The notes beneath the pieces are model-generated. The model ran no database searches. It was not told where the DNA came from and saw only the letters and a list, made by a program, of their open reading frames with translations. The translations under genes were made by a program, and so were the position numbers. A DNA stretch of 64,000 nt. Source: Prochlorococcus sp. AG-442-B03 (GTDB taxonomy: Bacteria; Cyanobacteriota; Cyanobacteriia; PCC-6307; Cyanobiaceae). Positions 2-47,210 of this stretch are shown here, piece by piece (within the stretch, counting starts at the first letter, position 1; the number at the start of each line of letters is the position of its first letter). The stretch is from the NCBI GenBank assembly GCA_003212395.1, contig QCPU01000007.1, forward strand, positions 1 to 64,000. The letters are read 5' to 3'.

Positions 2-1099
2 ATGAGTAGTAGTTTTGGAAGGATTTTTCGTGTTAGTACTTTTGGAGAATCACATGGTGGTGCAGTAGGAGTTATCCTTGATGGATGTCCCCCAAAGTTA
101 AAAGTAGATATAAATCTGATACAAAATGAATTAGATAGGCGTAGACCTGGACAAAGTGACATTACAACACCCCGAAATGAAGAAGATAAAATTGAAATCT
201 TAAGTGGGATAAAGGAAGGGTTAACACTTGGAACTCCAATAGCGATGTTGGTAAGAAACAAGGATCAAAGGCCAGGAGATTATGATAATTTAGAGCAAGT
301 ATTTAGACCTTCTCATGCAGATGGTACATATCATCTGAAATATGGAATTCAGGCAAGTTCTGGAGGTGGAAGAGCATCTGCAAGAGAAACAATTGGGAGG
401 GTGGCTGCTGGTGCTGTAGCAAAACAACTATTAAAAAACTTCTGTAACACTGAAATACTATCGTGGGTAAAGCGGATACATGATATTGATTCTGATATAA
501 ATAAAGAGAATATTTCTCTCAATAAAATAGATTCTAATATTGTTAGATGTCCTGATGAAAAAGTATCAGCAGAAATGATCCAGAGAATTAAGGAATTAAA
601 GCGTCAAGGAGACTCTTGTGGCGGTGTTATTGAATGTCTAGTTAGACATGTTCCTTCTGGTCTTGGAATGCCAGTTTTTGATAAATTAGAAGCTGATTTG
701 GCAAAGGCTTTGATGTCTTTGCCTGCCACGAAAGGATTTGAAATAGGTTCAGGTTTCTCTGGAACTTATTTAAAAGGAAGCGAACACAATGATGCATTCA
801 TTAAGTCTGATGATATTAGTAAGTTAAAAACAAAATCTAACAATTCAGGCGGTATACAGGGAGGAATAAGTAATGGCGAAAATATTTATATGAAGATAGC
901 TTTTAAACCTACAGCAACAATCGGGAAAGAACAGAAAACAGTAAATGCTGAAGGAAAAGAAGTATTGATGAAAGCAAAAGGAAGACATGATCCCTGCGTT
1001 CTTCCAAGAGCAGTACCTATGGTTGATGCTATGGTAGCTTTAGTACTTGCTGATCATTTACTTCTGAATCAAGCACAATGTGGCTTAATGAATAATTAG
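2..1099 (+). CDS. aroC: Chorismate synthase
   Basis: Last step of the shikimate pathway: converts 5-enolpyruvylshikimate-3-phosphate to chorismate in the cytosol, using reduced FMN. The 365-residue protein has the usual family length. Visible signatures are GESHGG near residues 15-20, [10 protein letters not shown] at 121-130, and the C-terminal [17 protein letters not shown] block, all typical of FMN-binding chorismate synthases. The ATG is the second base of the window, so upstream context cannot be seen, but the N-terminus [19 protein letters not shown] matches what the family starts with, so the gene looks complete. It converges on the aldolase-like gene with a 31-base A+T-rich spacer in which I see no GC-rich terminator. 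Confidence 0.97.
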
Positions 1100-16096: not shown

Positions 16097-16726
16097 ATGA
16101 GACAGCATGTTAATCCGCTTAGTAGTAATTTCAATCAAATTAAGAGAATACCTTCTTTGAGTGAAATGTTTGGGGATTCTAAACTGAATCTTCATTTGGA
16201 TATAGGTTGTGCTGCTGGTGAGTTTCTATACGATTTAGCTTTAGTTAATACCAGTTGGAATTATTTGGGAATTGAAATCCGTGAGAAATTAGTTCAAAAT
16301 GCTAAATTAAAATTTCTTGAAAAAGAAATCAAGAATCTATATTTTGTATTTGGTAATGCTAATAATATTTTGAATGATGCCCAAGGAAAATTTATTATCG
16401 AAAATTTAAAAAGTATTTCTTTTAATTTTCCTGATCCATGGTTTAAAAAAAGACATCATAAAAGGCGTGTAATTCAGCCAAAATTTATCAATATTCTTTC
16501 AAATTCATTACAAAAAGGAACCCTAATCTTTATAAAAACAGATGTAAAGGATTTATTCGATTATATGGATTGCGTTATATTAAGTAATTTTTATTTTAAA
16601 TCGATAGATAAAAAAGATTTTAATTTTTCCGAAAGTTTTAATCCAAATAAAGTTAAAACTAATCGGGAAAAGTATGTCATGCTTAATCAACTTGATATTT
16701 TTGAAAGGATTTATATAAAAATTTGA
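16097..16726 (+). CDS. trmB: tRNA (guanine-N7-)-methyltransferase
   Basis: SAM-dependent enzyme that makes m7G46 in the tRNA variable loop. The 209-residue Rossmann-fold protein has the SAM-binding [15 protein letters not shown] (about 33-47), the acidic ribose site [10 protein letters not shown], and the family signature [22 protein letters not shown], whose PDPW..K..H..RR residues bind the tRNA substrate. The C-terminal [10 protein letters not shown] matches the usual T.rE... pattern. It starts with ATG, divergent from the DUF3177 gene, and converges on glmM 7 bases further on. Confidence 0.95.
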
Positions 16727-39582: not shown

Positions 39583-40200
39583 ATGAAATATGCTATCAAT
39601 CATGAATTTGTCTCGATTAGCTCTCAAACTGCAACTCATAGAATTATTTTGTTGCATGGTTGGGGAGCTGATTCAGATGACCTTTTAACATTTGGAAAGG
39701 AGATGACCGAAAAAATAAATCTTGATTTTGAGGTAATTTCTTTGAGGGCGCCTGGATTACATCCAAGTGGTCAGGGAAGACAGTGGTATGGATTATACCC
39801 ACATGATTGGAATGGAGCTGAGGTTGAAGTAAATAAACTTTTAGTTACATTAAAAAAATTTGATACTAATCAAATTCCACTAAAAAAAACAATTTTGTTG
39901 GGATTCTCTCAGGGAGCGGCAATGGCAATTGATGCAGGATTTAAATTAAATTTTGGATTAATTGTCGCTTGTAGTGGTTATCCTCACCCCAATTGGGCTC
40001 CGGGTGAAAACTGCTCGCCATTAATTATTAGTCACGGTTTATTCGATGACGTCGTGCCAATAGATGCTTCTAGGACTATTTATGAAAAGGTAAAGAATAA
40101 GTCTTCTAAATTTTGTGAATTATTAGAATTCGATGGATTTCATCAAATTGATTCAAATTTAATCAATTTTATAAGTTCAAATATAAGAAATATTATTTAA
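39583..40200 (+). CDS. Phospholipase/carboxylesterase-type alpha/beta hydrolase
   Basis: 205-residue serine hydrolase of the carboxylesterase/acyl-protein-thioesterase group. The oxyanion-hole segment is ILLHGWGADSDDLLTF (23-38), the nucleophile elbow is LGFSQGAAMAIDAG (Ser near 109), and the later acid and base are in SHGLFDDVVPIDASR and FDGFHQID (His near 187). There is no signal peptide, so it acts in the cytosol. The substrate is unknown. The 3' end overlaps the convergent DUF3155 gene by four bases. Confidence 0.85.
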   Translation: MKYAINHEFVSISSQTATHRIILLHGWGADSDDLLTFGKEMTEKINLDFEVISLRAPGLHPSGQGRQWYGLYPHDWNGAEVEVNKLLVTLKKFDTNQIPLKKTILLGFSQGAAMAIDAGFKLNFGLIVACSGYPHPNWAPGENCSPLIISHGLFDDVVPIDASRTIYEKVKNKSSKFCELLEFDGFHQIDSNLINFISSNIRNII

Positions 40201-40565
40201 ACAAAAGCATATTCGTATTCTTCAATCTCTTCCCAATCATCTGCAGTAAGTTCTAGACCTTCAAATATTTTTTCTTCACCAATTCCTTCAACTACAACTT
40301 TTAGTGATGGAAATAGAAAATGATTTTCTTCAGCATATTGGGCGCTAAATAACCCTTTTTCACCCCAAAAAAACCTATCTGTGGTATGTTCATTTCTTCT
40401 GACATTGAAGACAGAGGGCGCAGAGAGACCATTTTCAGCTATGAATCTTCTTGCTGCAGTAACTGGTTTATGTTTGCCAGTTTCGATATGATAAATAGGT
40501 ACATGTGCCATTACTCTTTGACCAGCCAATCTTCTTCTGCTGATTCTTTTTCTTTTTTTTGACAT
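40197..40565 (-). CDS. Cyanobacterial protein, DUF3155 family
   Basis: 122-residue soluble protein with a very basic N-terminus (MSKKRKRISRRRLAGQRV) and an acidic C-terminus (LTADDWEEIEEYEYAFV). The core VPIYHIETGKHKPVTAARRFIAENGLSAPSVFNVRRNEHTTDRFFWGEKGLF fits the DUF3155 family from memory; function unknown. The basic start suggests nucleic-acid or ribosome contact, which is inference only. It is divergent from the histidine kinase gene across a 254-base spacer that contains a palindrome and a structured segment. Confidence 0.75.
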   Translation of the reverse strand: MSKKRKRISRRRLAGQRVMAHVPIYHIETGKHKPVTAARRFIAENGLSAPSVFNVRRNEHTTDRFFWGEKGLFSAQYAEENHFLFPSLKVVVEGIGEEKIFEGLELTADDWEEIEEYEYAFV

Positions 40566-40628
40566 TGATCGGTACTCCTGAAATTATTAATGAGATTAGT
40601 CTTATTTATTTTTACTAATCTTATATAT

Positions 40629-40644
40629 GTGATTTTAAATTCAC
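40629..40644. repeat. GTGA-N8-TCAC palindrome
   Basis: GTGATTTTAAATTCAC has inverted half-sites GTGA and TCAC 8 bases apart. It lies 64 bases upstream of the DUF3155 start on one side and 13 bases before the structured segment on the other. It resembles a CRP-type operator but the spacing is 8, not the usual 6. Confidence 0.35.
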
Positions 40645-40656
40645 TTCAAATTACAT

Positions 40657-40734
40657 AGAGGACCCATCAACCCCTGATGTAGCTTAAAATATGATTAAAT
40701 GTTCATATTTAAGGCTGGCAAAAGTCAGACCTCT
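40657..40734 (+). ncRNA. Candidate cloverleaf-like structured RNA or leader
   Basis: Four nested helices fit this 78-base segment. The closing stem is AGAGG (40657-40661) with CCTCT (40730-40734). Arm 1 is CATCA (40665-40669) with TGATG (40675-40679). Arm 2 is AAATATG (40687-40693) with CATATTT (40704-40710), extendable by TT/AA and C-G pairs past a bulge. Arm 3 is CTGGC (40715-40719) with GTCAG (40724-40728) around AAAA. Arm 3 contains a G-U pair that only forms in the plus-strand RNA, which favours that orientation. It ends 85 bases before the histidine kinase ATG. It is not a tRNA: there is no T-arm consensus and the helix lengths are wrong. Confidence 0.45.
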
Positions 40735-40819
40735 TTATATATCTTAATACTTTTTTCATATTTTACAAGCCCTTTTTCAAGTTTTTTTTTAAAAAAAAAT
40801 TCTCAAAACTTTATTAATA

Positions 40820-41956
40820 ATGAATCTTTCAAAAAAATTTGAAGAACTAATTATAAAACAGCTGGAGAGTTTTGGTTGCTCAATGGGCGTGACTAATTTA
40901 GTTATGTATCTTGCTTCAGCTAAGCAAGGAACTAAAGCATCTTTTGAAATGATTGGTCAATGGCCTCAAATTGATAGGCTACTGACATCAATAGAAGATG
41001 ATCCTTCACTAAAAGTTTCATCGCCTAATAGAAGATGGTATCCGCTTCAAGAAAACGATATTCTACTTGGTGTCCTTAGGGTCGAAACTGATTTGAAAGG
41101 GGGGAATTGGCCAGTATCTCTTGATTCGAGATTAAAAGCGCTTTCAATATCTTTAGCTAAATGCGTCTCTATCGAATTAGAACGTCAAAACAAAAATAAA
41201 GAAATCAATTATTTAAAAAATCAGGTAAATGTCATTATCCATCAATTAAGGAATCCATTGGCTGCTATTAGGACATATGCAAAATTACTAATAAAAAGAC
41301 TTGGTTCAGATGATGACTCTATTGAAATAGTCGAACGCATGATAATAGAGCAAAAACAAATTAATCAATATATGGATTCTTTTTCGCAACTAAATTCACC
41401 TATTCAACTGCCTTTAGAAATAGGAGAGGAAAGATTATTATTACCACCAAATTTAGATAATAAAAAGGTAATAACTGTTCAGAGTTTATTGAGACCAATA
41501 TTAGAAAGGGGTAAAGCTAATGCGGATTTAGAGAATAGAGATTGGACTGAACCTTCTCTTTGGCCAGATTGGACTTTATCGCCATTAAAGGCAAAATACG
41601 CTGTAATTGCCGAAATTGTGGCCAATTTATTAGAAAATGCTTTTAAATATGCCCAAAAAGATGCTGCAATTGGACTCGTAATTACGAGTAATGGACTTTT
41701 TATATTTGATGATGGTAAAAAAATAACCAAAAATGAAAACGAGAAAATTTTTGAAAAAGGTTTTAGAGGATCTGCCGCTAAGAAGAAGGACGGCACTGGA
41801 GTAGGACTTTTTTTGGCGAGGAAATTGGCAAAACAAATTGGAGGAGATTTGAGATTGCTGGAAAATAACTCGATTGATAATACTGAGAAATTAAAGAATC
41901 TTAAGAAGAAAAATATTTTCTATTTAGAACTACCTATAAAAGAATTGCATGCATAA
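40820..41956 (+). CDS. Sensor histidine kinase (cytosolic, orphan)
   Basis: 378-residue two-component kinase. Residues 1-120 form a sensor-like, probably GAF-type, domain with no membrane segment. The dimerisation/phosphoacceptor H-box is VIIHQLRNPLAAIRTYAKLL (H141). The ATPase domain has the N-box EIVANLLENAFKYA, G1 FIFDDGKKI, F-box EKGFRGSA and G2 GTGVGLFLARKLAKQIGG. No response regulator is adjacent, so the partner is elsewhere; picocyanobacteria have very few such kinases. The upstream 254-base spacer is the longest in the window and includes a structured segment. The 3' end overlaps convergent cobS by 23 bases. Confidence 0.92.
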   Translation: MNLSKKFEELIIKQLESFGCSMGVTNLVMYLASAKQGTKASFEMIGQWPQIDRLLTSIEDDPSLKVSSPNRRWYPLQENDILLGVLRVETDLKGGNWPVSLDSRLKALSISLAKCVSIELERQNKNKEINYLKNQVNVIIHQLRNPLAAIRTYAKLLIKRLGSDDDSIEIVERMIIEQKQINQYMDSFSQLNSPIQLPLEIGEERLLLPPNLDNKKVITVQSLLRPILERGKANADLENRDWTEPSLWPDWTLSPLKAKYAVIAEIVANLLENAFKYAQKDAAIGLVITSNGLFIFDDGKKITKNENEKIFEKGFRGSAAKKKDGTGVGLFLARKLAKQIGGDLRLLENNSIDNTEKLKNLKKKNIFYLELPIKELHA

Positions 41957-46649: not shown

Positions 46650-47210
46650 ATGGATAAATTTTCGGATAAATATGACTTAAATAAAGCAAAATTGTTAAAA
46701 CAGTTAATTGAAAAATCTTACAAGAGAGGAAACTACACTTTATCTTCAGGAAAAAAAAGCAGTCATTACTTGAACTGTAAACCGGTATCATTAAATGGCG
46801 AAGGCTTAAACTTAATAAGTGAATTATTTTTAGATTTAAAGGACTCAAGGTCAAAAGCTGTAGCAGGATTGACATTAGGTGCAGACCCTATAGTAAGTGG
46901 ATTAATTGTTAAAGCAGCTTTGAATGGATTAGACCTTGATGGTTTAATAATTAGGAAAGAAATCAAAAAATACGGTACCAAAGCTGGAATAGAGGGCCCT
47001 ATATTAGAAGAAGGAACTTTGGTAACTGTCTTAGAGGATGTGGTGACAACTGCTGGTTCAGTAATAAAAGCTATAAAAAAATTACGAGAAAATAATTATG
47101 TTGTTGAGGAAGTTTTGTCTATAGTTGATAGGCAAGAAGGGGGATTAGAAGCCCTTGAAGATGAAAATGTTAAATTAAAGAGTCTTTTTACAATAAAAGA
47201 CTTTTTATAA
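46650..47210 (+). CDS. pyrE: Orotate phosphoribosyltransferase
   Basis: Adds PRPP-derived ribose-phosphate to orotate to give OMP in pyrimidine synthesis. The 186-residue type I phosphoribosyltransferase has [18 protein letters not shown]-like [13 protein letters not shown] near 33-45, the flexible catalytic loop with [15 protein letters not shown] and the PRPP motif [14 protein letters not shown] (about 125-138). The start is ATG after a 142-base spacer that I find otherwise empty. It is followed 10 bases later by ygfZ. Confidence 0.96.

Follow-up and report, generated by a model that had tools for sequence, protein, structure and literature searches.

A conserved row of hairpins before DUF3155 in Prochlorococcus and its family, a probable 5' leader of the DUF3155 mRNA

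The nearest described counterparts of the element reported here are ribosomal protein leaders and riboswitches, which it resembles as a structured, covarying, putative leader between a promoter-like block and one gene. It differs from them in being known from sequence alone, in having no Rfam match at gathering score, and in the gene that it would control, DUF3155, which encodes a protein of unknown function. To our knowledge, structured mRNA leaders have seldom been described in the Earth's most abundant phototrophs. A leader kept family-wide before a nearly universal cyanobacterial gene would be a direct handle on what DUF3155 responds to.

In the MED4 strain, Table 1 of Axmann et al. 2005 lists as cluster 217 a spacer flanked by genes for a two-component sensor histidine kinase and for a conserved hypothetical protein (PMC1242208). 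The entry has 153 nt, one sequence, a Z of -1.63 and a Z rev of -4.28 (PMC1242208). It shares with our locus the kinase/conserved hypothetical spacer and a structural signal that is stronger in one orientation. As it stands in that table, it differs in being a single sequence, unlinked to relatives and unnamed. The two are probably the same spacer, an identity that is likely rather than proven because MED4 has four histidine kinases (PMC1242208). The “Exp” column of cluster 217 holds “-”, under a footnote that defines only “+” and “NT”, and the accompanying text states that Northern tests on both strands covered every MED4 candidate of the remaining clusters (PMC1242208). The lack of a positive Northern in that table is easier to reconcile with an mRNA leader than with an abundant small RNA.

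Yfr103 is another structured picocyanobacterial RNA of similar length, 290-328 nt (PMC5069720). We rejected identity with this multicopy ncRNA, since the copy number differs: the available text gives seven paralogues in Synechococcus CC9605 (PMC5069720), against a single match per matching family genome, apart from a second, weak one in that of the window, for our covariance model R1, described below. HL Prochlorococcus is also absent from the homologue list in that text (PMC5069720). In a MED4 RNA-seq study, 5'UTRs were scanned with Rfam, and its available text reports no conserved element (PMC3898218). The element is not named in the available texts of PMC7368042, PMC5069720, PMC3898218, PMC2518516 and PMC3441193. 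In the article texts searched, DUF3155 is named in one paper, within a listing.

A preliminary description of this DNA knew of no motif with such a shape at this place, and the database searches agree. With Rfam 15, no match at gathering score was found between 38000 and 44000 at E<=5. Two models matched below threshold: rox2 near the element (40709-40775, minus strand; E 0.39, 25.9 bits where 55 are needed) and, elsewhere in that range, one for a miRNA. Three matches in 19 homologous loci, of 16.8-26.7 bits, were all below gathering scores. The four-way junction of the initial single-sequence fold is reminiscent of a tRNA. ARAGORN and Rfam gave no tRNA at the element, and its cloverleaf is lost in diverged relatives, unlike that of a tRNA; a tRNA or tRNA-like element was rejected on the lack of ARAGORN and Rfam matches.

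The window analysed is a stretch of 64,000 nucleotides from Prochlorococcus sp. AG-442-B03. The element lies in the spacer between the DUF3155 gene (40197-40565, minus strand, 122 aa; PF11352, E 4.3e-45) and a divergent histidine kinase gene (40820-41956, plus strand, 378 aa; HisKA and HATPase_c). The cloverleaf-like fold proposed in the preliminary description was reproduced by RNAfold. On the plus strand, 40655-40736 has an MFE of -22.3 and a z of -3.33, with equal stability in 2 of 200 shuffles. The predicted fold has a closing stem (40657-61/40730-34), arm 1 (40665-69/40675-79), arm 2 (40681-85/40712-16 plus 40687-94/40703-10) and a small third arm. Such a compact fold had been thought rare by chance. 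When the window was scanned in steps of 60 nt, a z at or below that of the target was obtained for 13 of 2132 strand-windows (82 nt each), so the fold strength is unusual and not unique. The G+C content, at 36.6%, is indeed above that of the left (22.5%) and right (15.7%) spacer. The cloverleaf is thus a sound observation as the fold of one sequence. The strongest-folding 82-nt windows of the scan are found near 16620 (z -4.95) and near 47160 (z -4.84).

Within the genus, kinase matches at E<=0.001 were obtained in 196 of 200 genomes, some of them weak and to other kinases, and 80 of 203 loci were kept. Across 109 distinct genus sequences, the spacer is conserved chiefly in block A (40650-40694) and block B (40739-40770), the latter almost invariant. 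Stems were counted in 83 distinct genus sequences from 172 loci (genomes partly repeated) and in 16 rows picked as the most diverged. On the plus strand, all pairs of the closing stem form in 67 of the 83 and in 10 of the 16 diverged rows, the stem being broken in the other 6; all those of arm 1 form in 75 of the 83 and in 11 diverged rows, this arm being broken in 5; and all those of arm 3 form in 67 of the 83 and in 7 diverged rows. Just 3 or 4 of 5 pairs are left of the closing stem in loci L125 and L284-L288, and of arm 1 in L275-L277, L280 and L281. In these last five loci, the change at 40676 breaks arm 1 and merely swaps the bulged base of a different hairpin, termed P3. As for the inner long arm (arm 2, here P2), the exact pairs of the window are kept in 70 of the 83 sequences and in 8 of the 16 rows. 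These counts conceal re-pairing: in each of the 16 diverged rows the P2 stretch, folded alone, still makes a hairpin with 6 to 13 pairs.

For 21 rows picked for divergence, the window among them, RNAalifold predicts both P2 and P3 whichever strand is used, and the cloverleaf is absent from this prediction. Given in minus-strand sense, P2 covers 40682-40715 (inner pairs 40687-94/40703-10, outer pairs 40682-85/40712-15), and P3 covers 40652-40681 (40652-56/40677-81 plus 40657-61/40671-75, with 40676 bulged). Arm 3 corresponds to a small P1-like hairpin at 40715-40728, seen in the plus-strand fold and in a consensus scan. The AGAGG strand of the closing stem also forms P3 (40652-40661/40671-40681). 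The inner five pairs of P3 are 86.0% Watson-Crick, 13.7% minus wobble and 0.2% plus wobble in the genus (57 wobbles on minus and 1 on plus among 415 cells), with 0/415 cells broken. Because P3 is kept while the cloverleaf stems break, AGAGG is better read as part of this local hairpin. The cloverleaf was therefore rejected as a conserved structure, its closing stem and arm 1 being broken in some diverged relatives and RNAalifold giving P2 and P3 instead, and the claim of a cloverleaf shape is probably wrong. The preliminary description had named the loss of stems in close relatives as a refutation, and by that yardstick the closing stem and arm 1 do not hold. The conserved shape is probably a row of hairpins. 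A plausible single-sequence cloverleaf can be the shadow of a different, older structure.

In the family, a DNA search matched 88 of 300 genomes; in other genera the matches were mostly to block B, to block A in several, plus scattered AT-rich ones. DUF3155 was found in 186 of the 201 family genomes searched for it, and at genus level in 56 of 59. Family spacers (L153-L250) were fetched via DNA match or via DUF3155. On the DUF3155-sense strand, 96 of the 98 spacers for which a start was located have a block B-like stretch (>=16/29 letters), followed by 175 to 369 nt of leader. The family leaders contain a mismatched hairpin, GGU.GCAC/GUGC.ACC, and then GCUACAGCAGAGG with its own hairpin. In the window, the former is P2 and the latter P3. 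The 5' strand of P3 is nearly invariant, reading GCUACAGCAGAG in most other genera and GCUACAUCAGRG in the genus of the window.

For a covariance model of P2 and P3 (R1), 16 sequences were used, all from genera other than that of the window. It picks the place of the element on the minus strand (40649-40705, 23.7 bits, E 1.6e-4), with a runner-up in the window at 13.1 bits. At E<=0.02, R1 matched 75 of 100 sources (its 16 model sequences included), with one match each, in 46 of 59 sampled genera. The association with DUF3155 in these 100 sources is partly built into the sample, as the spacers had been fetched by DNA match or DUF3155. Across 291 class genomes, R1 matches occurred in 31 of the 36 that belong to the family and, weakly (E 4e-4 to 9e-3), in 12 of the 255 outside it. 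There is one match per matching family genome, and the genome of the window has a second, weak one. In the search untied to DUF3155, the listed R1 places sit before DUF3155 wherever the place of DUF3155 is known; among the 12 non-family matches, the four with a known DUF3155 place lie on a contig other than that of DUF3155. A fixed association with one downstream gene, as would be looked for in a structured leader, was thus found. Judging from these comparisons, the RNA element is old and common to Prochlorococcus and many relatives in the family.

Some variations of the leader were also seen. A tandem duplication of the P2 segment and the start of P3 is present in loci L171 and L239 (one genus). 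By eye, many longer leaders (L192, L203, L217) have a second conserved motif, approximately GACAGACGUUUGGGCGUUGC, roughly 100 nt past P3, which was not seen by eye in the short leader of the window. In part of L157-L178 and in L291-L301 (genus g56), the leader carries a nearly invariant AGGAGGYTATCTCAAA close to its 5' end, and TCTCAAAT is able to pair with ATTTGAGA beyond P3.

The preliminary description had proposed aligning the DUF3155-kinase spacer from many genomes and looking for covariation, and the outcome supports P2 and P3. The seed alignment (A2, 16 rows) has little covariation, with 2 double-changed pairs and 132/500 shuffles as high. A fitted alignment (A4) holds 74 R1 matches from 79 sources, taken from the 100 of R1 by score plus four HL loci, and thus chosen after the R1 scores were known. 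Its covariation score is 0.239 vs <=0.081 in slid controls, and it has 88 double-changed cells vs 33.3 in shuffles; being fitted, it leans towards the structure. The alignment A7, not fitted to the structure, has 59 rows (58 distinct) from segments of L153-L250, with L153, L163, L180-L188, L192-L210, L213, L216, L221, L222, L223, L226, L230, L237 and L249 omitted. It gives a score of 0.208 vs 0.074-0.122 in slid controls, and 53 double-changed cells vs 28.6 +/- 4.2 in shuffles (0/500) and 42 in the best slid control. For both A4 and A7, shuffles ignore relatedness and slid controls keep it. Some P3 pairs are weak in A7: 39-66 is paired in 14/58 rows and 45-60 in 10/58. Single compensatory cases noted by eye include CACU/AGUG, CGCU/AGCG and CAUU/AAUG within one clade (L163, L177, L178), and a change of GCAC/GUGC to CCAC/GUGG in L167. 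Conserved pairing with covariation is hence present in A4 and A7 and weak in the 16-row seed. Of the arms first described, arm 2 has the compensatory changes across the family.

Block B carries a direction. In 71 family sequences, left of 96 after redundancy reduction and with GC-rich genomes included, its minus-strand consensus is CTTGAAAATTC.GAAAAAAGTMTTAAGAT. The -10-like hexamer TAAGAT (40741-40746, minus) has each base 90-99% conserved in these sequences and 100% in the 109 distinct genus rows. The -35-like hexamer TTGTAA (40763-40768, minus) lies 16 nt from it, its T, T and G being 90, 87 and 90% conserved. Sequence conservation resumes 6-7 nt past block B. In a comparison by eye with the HLR1, Pho box and NtcA consensus sequences, no such site fitted block B. 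This block looks like a promoter towards DUF3155 and away from the histidine kinase. The preliminary description had pointed to a kinase leader or a separate small RNA; the conserved structured element stands, and the gene is probably wrong, as block B points to DUF3155.

As outgroup, we took the 30 best-scoring non-family DUF3155 loci, several from the same families, 29 of which have a start (not L332). Within 150 nt of DUF3155 and in the same sense, TTGAWW-16..18-TATANT is present in 23/29 loci, with a shuffled fraction of 0.004. A looser promoter pattern reaches 28/29, which is weak as shuffles give 28.9%. Since most outgroup loci have this promoter-like pattern upstream of DUF3155, a promoter of such type and direction is expected in the family. 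The long leader looks like a feature of the family.

We read the element as belonging to a structured leader at the 5' end of the DUF3155 message, lying on the minus strand and likely cis-regulatory, with a probability of roughly two in three. The observations behind this are the deep conservation, the covarying P2 and P3, the fixed site before DUF3155 and the conserved directional block; strand, start site and cis control of DUF3155 are what we infer from them. Among these, the conserved promoter-like block was weighed most. Judged by the distance to TTGTAA and TAAGAT, transcription would start near 40734 (40733-40735, minus), giving a leader of ~170 nt with the element as its 5' part. The leader would fold into a small 5' hairpin, P2 and P3, and then run to the ribosome-binding site of DUF3155, where a Shine-Dalgarno-like AGGAG is found (40575-40579, minus). 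It would control DUF3155 expression in cis. The simplest route would be a factor, possibly a ligand or DUF3155 itself, which is a very basic protein, that binds the 5' strand of P3, nearly invariant in sequence (GCUACAGCAGAG/GCUACAUCAGRG); binding would alter translation or decay of the DUF3155 message.

DUF3155 is present in 115 of 116 genomes sampled from the cyanobacterial class, with 44 invariant columns among 20 diverse sequences. Its AlphaFold model has a mean pLDDT of 56.5, from a very uniform alignment. No Foldseek match was found at E<=0.001 and no PDB sequence relative at E<=1. Given the low pLDDT and this lack of relatives, RNA binding by DUF3155 is without support beyond its basic N terminus.

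A more speculative extension, which we hold only tentatively, is that the element represents a new family-wide class of cis-acting RNA switch, in which DUF3155 would be controlled by a ligand or by itself through binding at GCUACAGCAGAG and alternating pairing partners. Pairing of the 3' strand of P3 with an upstream AGAGG copy in the 5' part of the leader, which in the cloverleaf makes the closing stem, was evaluated in 75 leaders (of 93, after redundancy cut). The mean z is -0.20, with p<=0.05 in 11/75 leaders on minus and 8 on plus. These values do not support a bistable P3/AGAGG switch as a general feature. Between P3 and DUF3155, the window also has two inverted repeats, AGATTAGT..ACTAATCT (40593-40621) and GTGA..TCAC (40629-40644), the arms of which are more conserved than the loops in the genus.

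One unlikely alternative is that the same minus-strand promoter yields a separate small RNA, terminated or processed upstream of DUF3155. The compact hairpins right behind the promoter-like block would suit it, and leaders of 175 to 369 nt are long enough for it, but a terminator-like site is present in only 5/96 family leaders. The “-” in the Northern column of cluster 217, probably this spacer and with both strands probed in MED4 according to that text (PMC1242208), also speaks against it.

The opposite strand offers a somewhat poorer candidate, a plus-strand kinase mRNA leader or plus-strand small RNA with a lineage-specific cloverleaf, which we regard as quite unlikely. It draws on the window itself, where the plus strand folds better (-5.70 vs -2.41 over 150 nt, -3.33 vs -2.13 over 82 nt). 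In nearly all close rows, arm 3 and the outer part of P2 each have one plus-strand G-U, and in A4 the pair 68-111 is A-C on minus (G-U on plus) in 38 rows. A consensus scan of 40400-40950 leans the same way: it listed no promoter on minus, and on plus it gave a promoter-like site at 40559-40587 and, on arm 3, a terminator-like site (40715-40728; 1 found, 0.2 expected). Against this reading, some diverged relatives have lost pairs of the closing stem and arm 1, and block B, conserved and AT-rich, would fall on the 3' side of the RNA, where it has no obvious role. The plus-strand promoter-like site overlaps the start codon of DUF3155, and its count of 1 is below the 2.5 expected by shuffles.

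The energies are split. Over 71 leaders (of 84, after redundancy cut), folding z averages -2.09 for the minus strand against -1.80 for plus, and minus has the lower value in just 39 of them. By RNAalifold energy, 6 of 8 clades favour minus and 2 favour plus, and the 42-sequence core alignment has a consensus energy of -16.4 on plus vs -15.6 on minus. Wobble counts in A4, 82 G-U vs 91 A-C, give no overall strand signal; they favour minus if one pair and the terminal pairs are dropped, a post hoc choice. Neither wobble pairs nor folding energies point clearly to one strand. The G-U pair in the third arm, earlier taken to indicate plus-strand RNA, does exist on that strand, but the family counts do not decide it.

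Balanced wobble counts are also what DNA symmetry would give. The element could then have no RNA function, with its inverted repeats and block B serving instead as DNA targets of proteins that regulate DUF3155 and the divergent kinase. The near-invariance of block B in the genus, spacer included, goes beyond plain promoter needs and would agree with this. Yet P2 varies in sequence, length and loop and still stays a hairpin, and P3 is bulged. Protein operators rarely vary like P2 or carry a bulge like P3, and we consider DNA sites very improbable. Lastly, a short minus-strand coding frame (KATAEVDGSS-like), open by eye around GCT ACA GCA GAG in several genera, is hardly credible and was rejected, since no common start codon was seen and adjacent stops were seen in the window and several LL-like lineages, all by eye.

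In terms of gene context, kinase and DUF3155 hits were both found in 74 of 128 loci, and the two are on opposite strands in 27/27 pairs listed (10 family, 17 outgroup). In the outgroup, a histidine kinase hit is divergent to DUF3155 in 17/30 loci, although these may be other kinases. The divergent pair may be very old.

A further observation concerns GTAN8TAC, which we take to be the NtcA consensus. It is found within 130 nt of DUF3155 in 17/29 outgroup loci (L308-L331), with 3.6% in mononucleotide shuffles. This suggests that DUF3155 may be under nitrogen control in other cyanobacteria. In loci L308 and L310, GTAN8TAC overlaps a -10-like hexamer.
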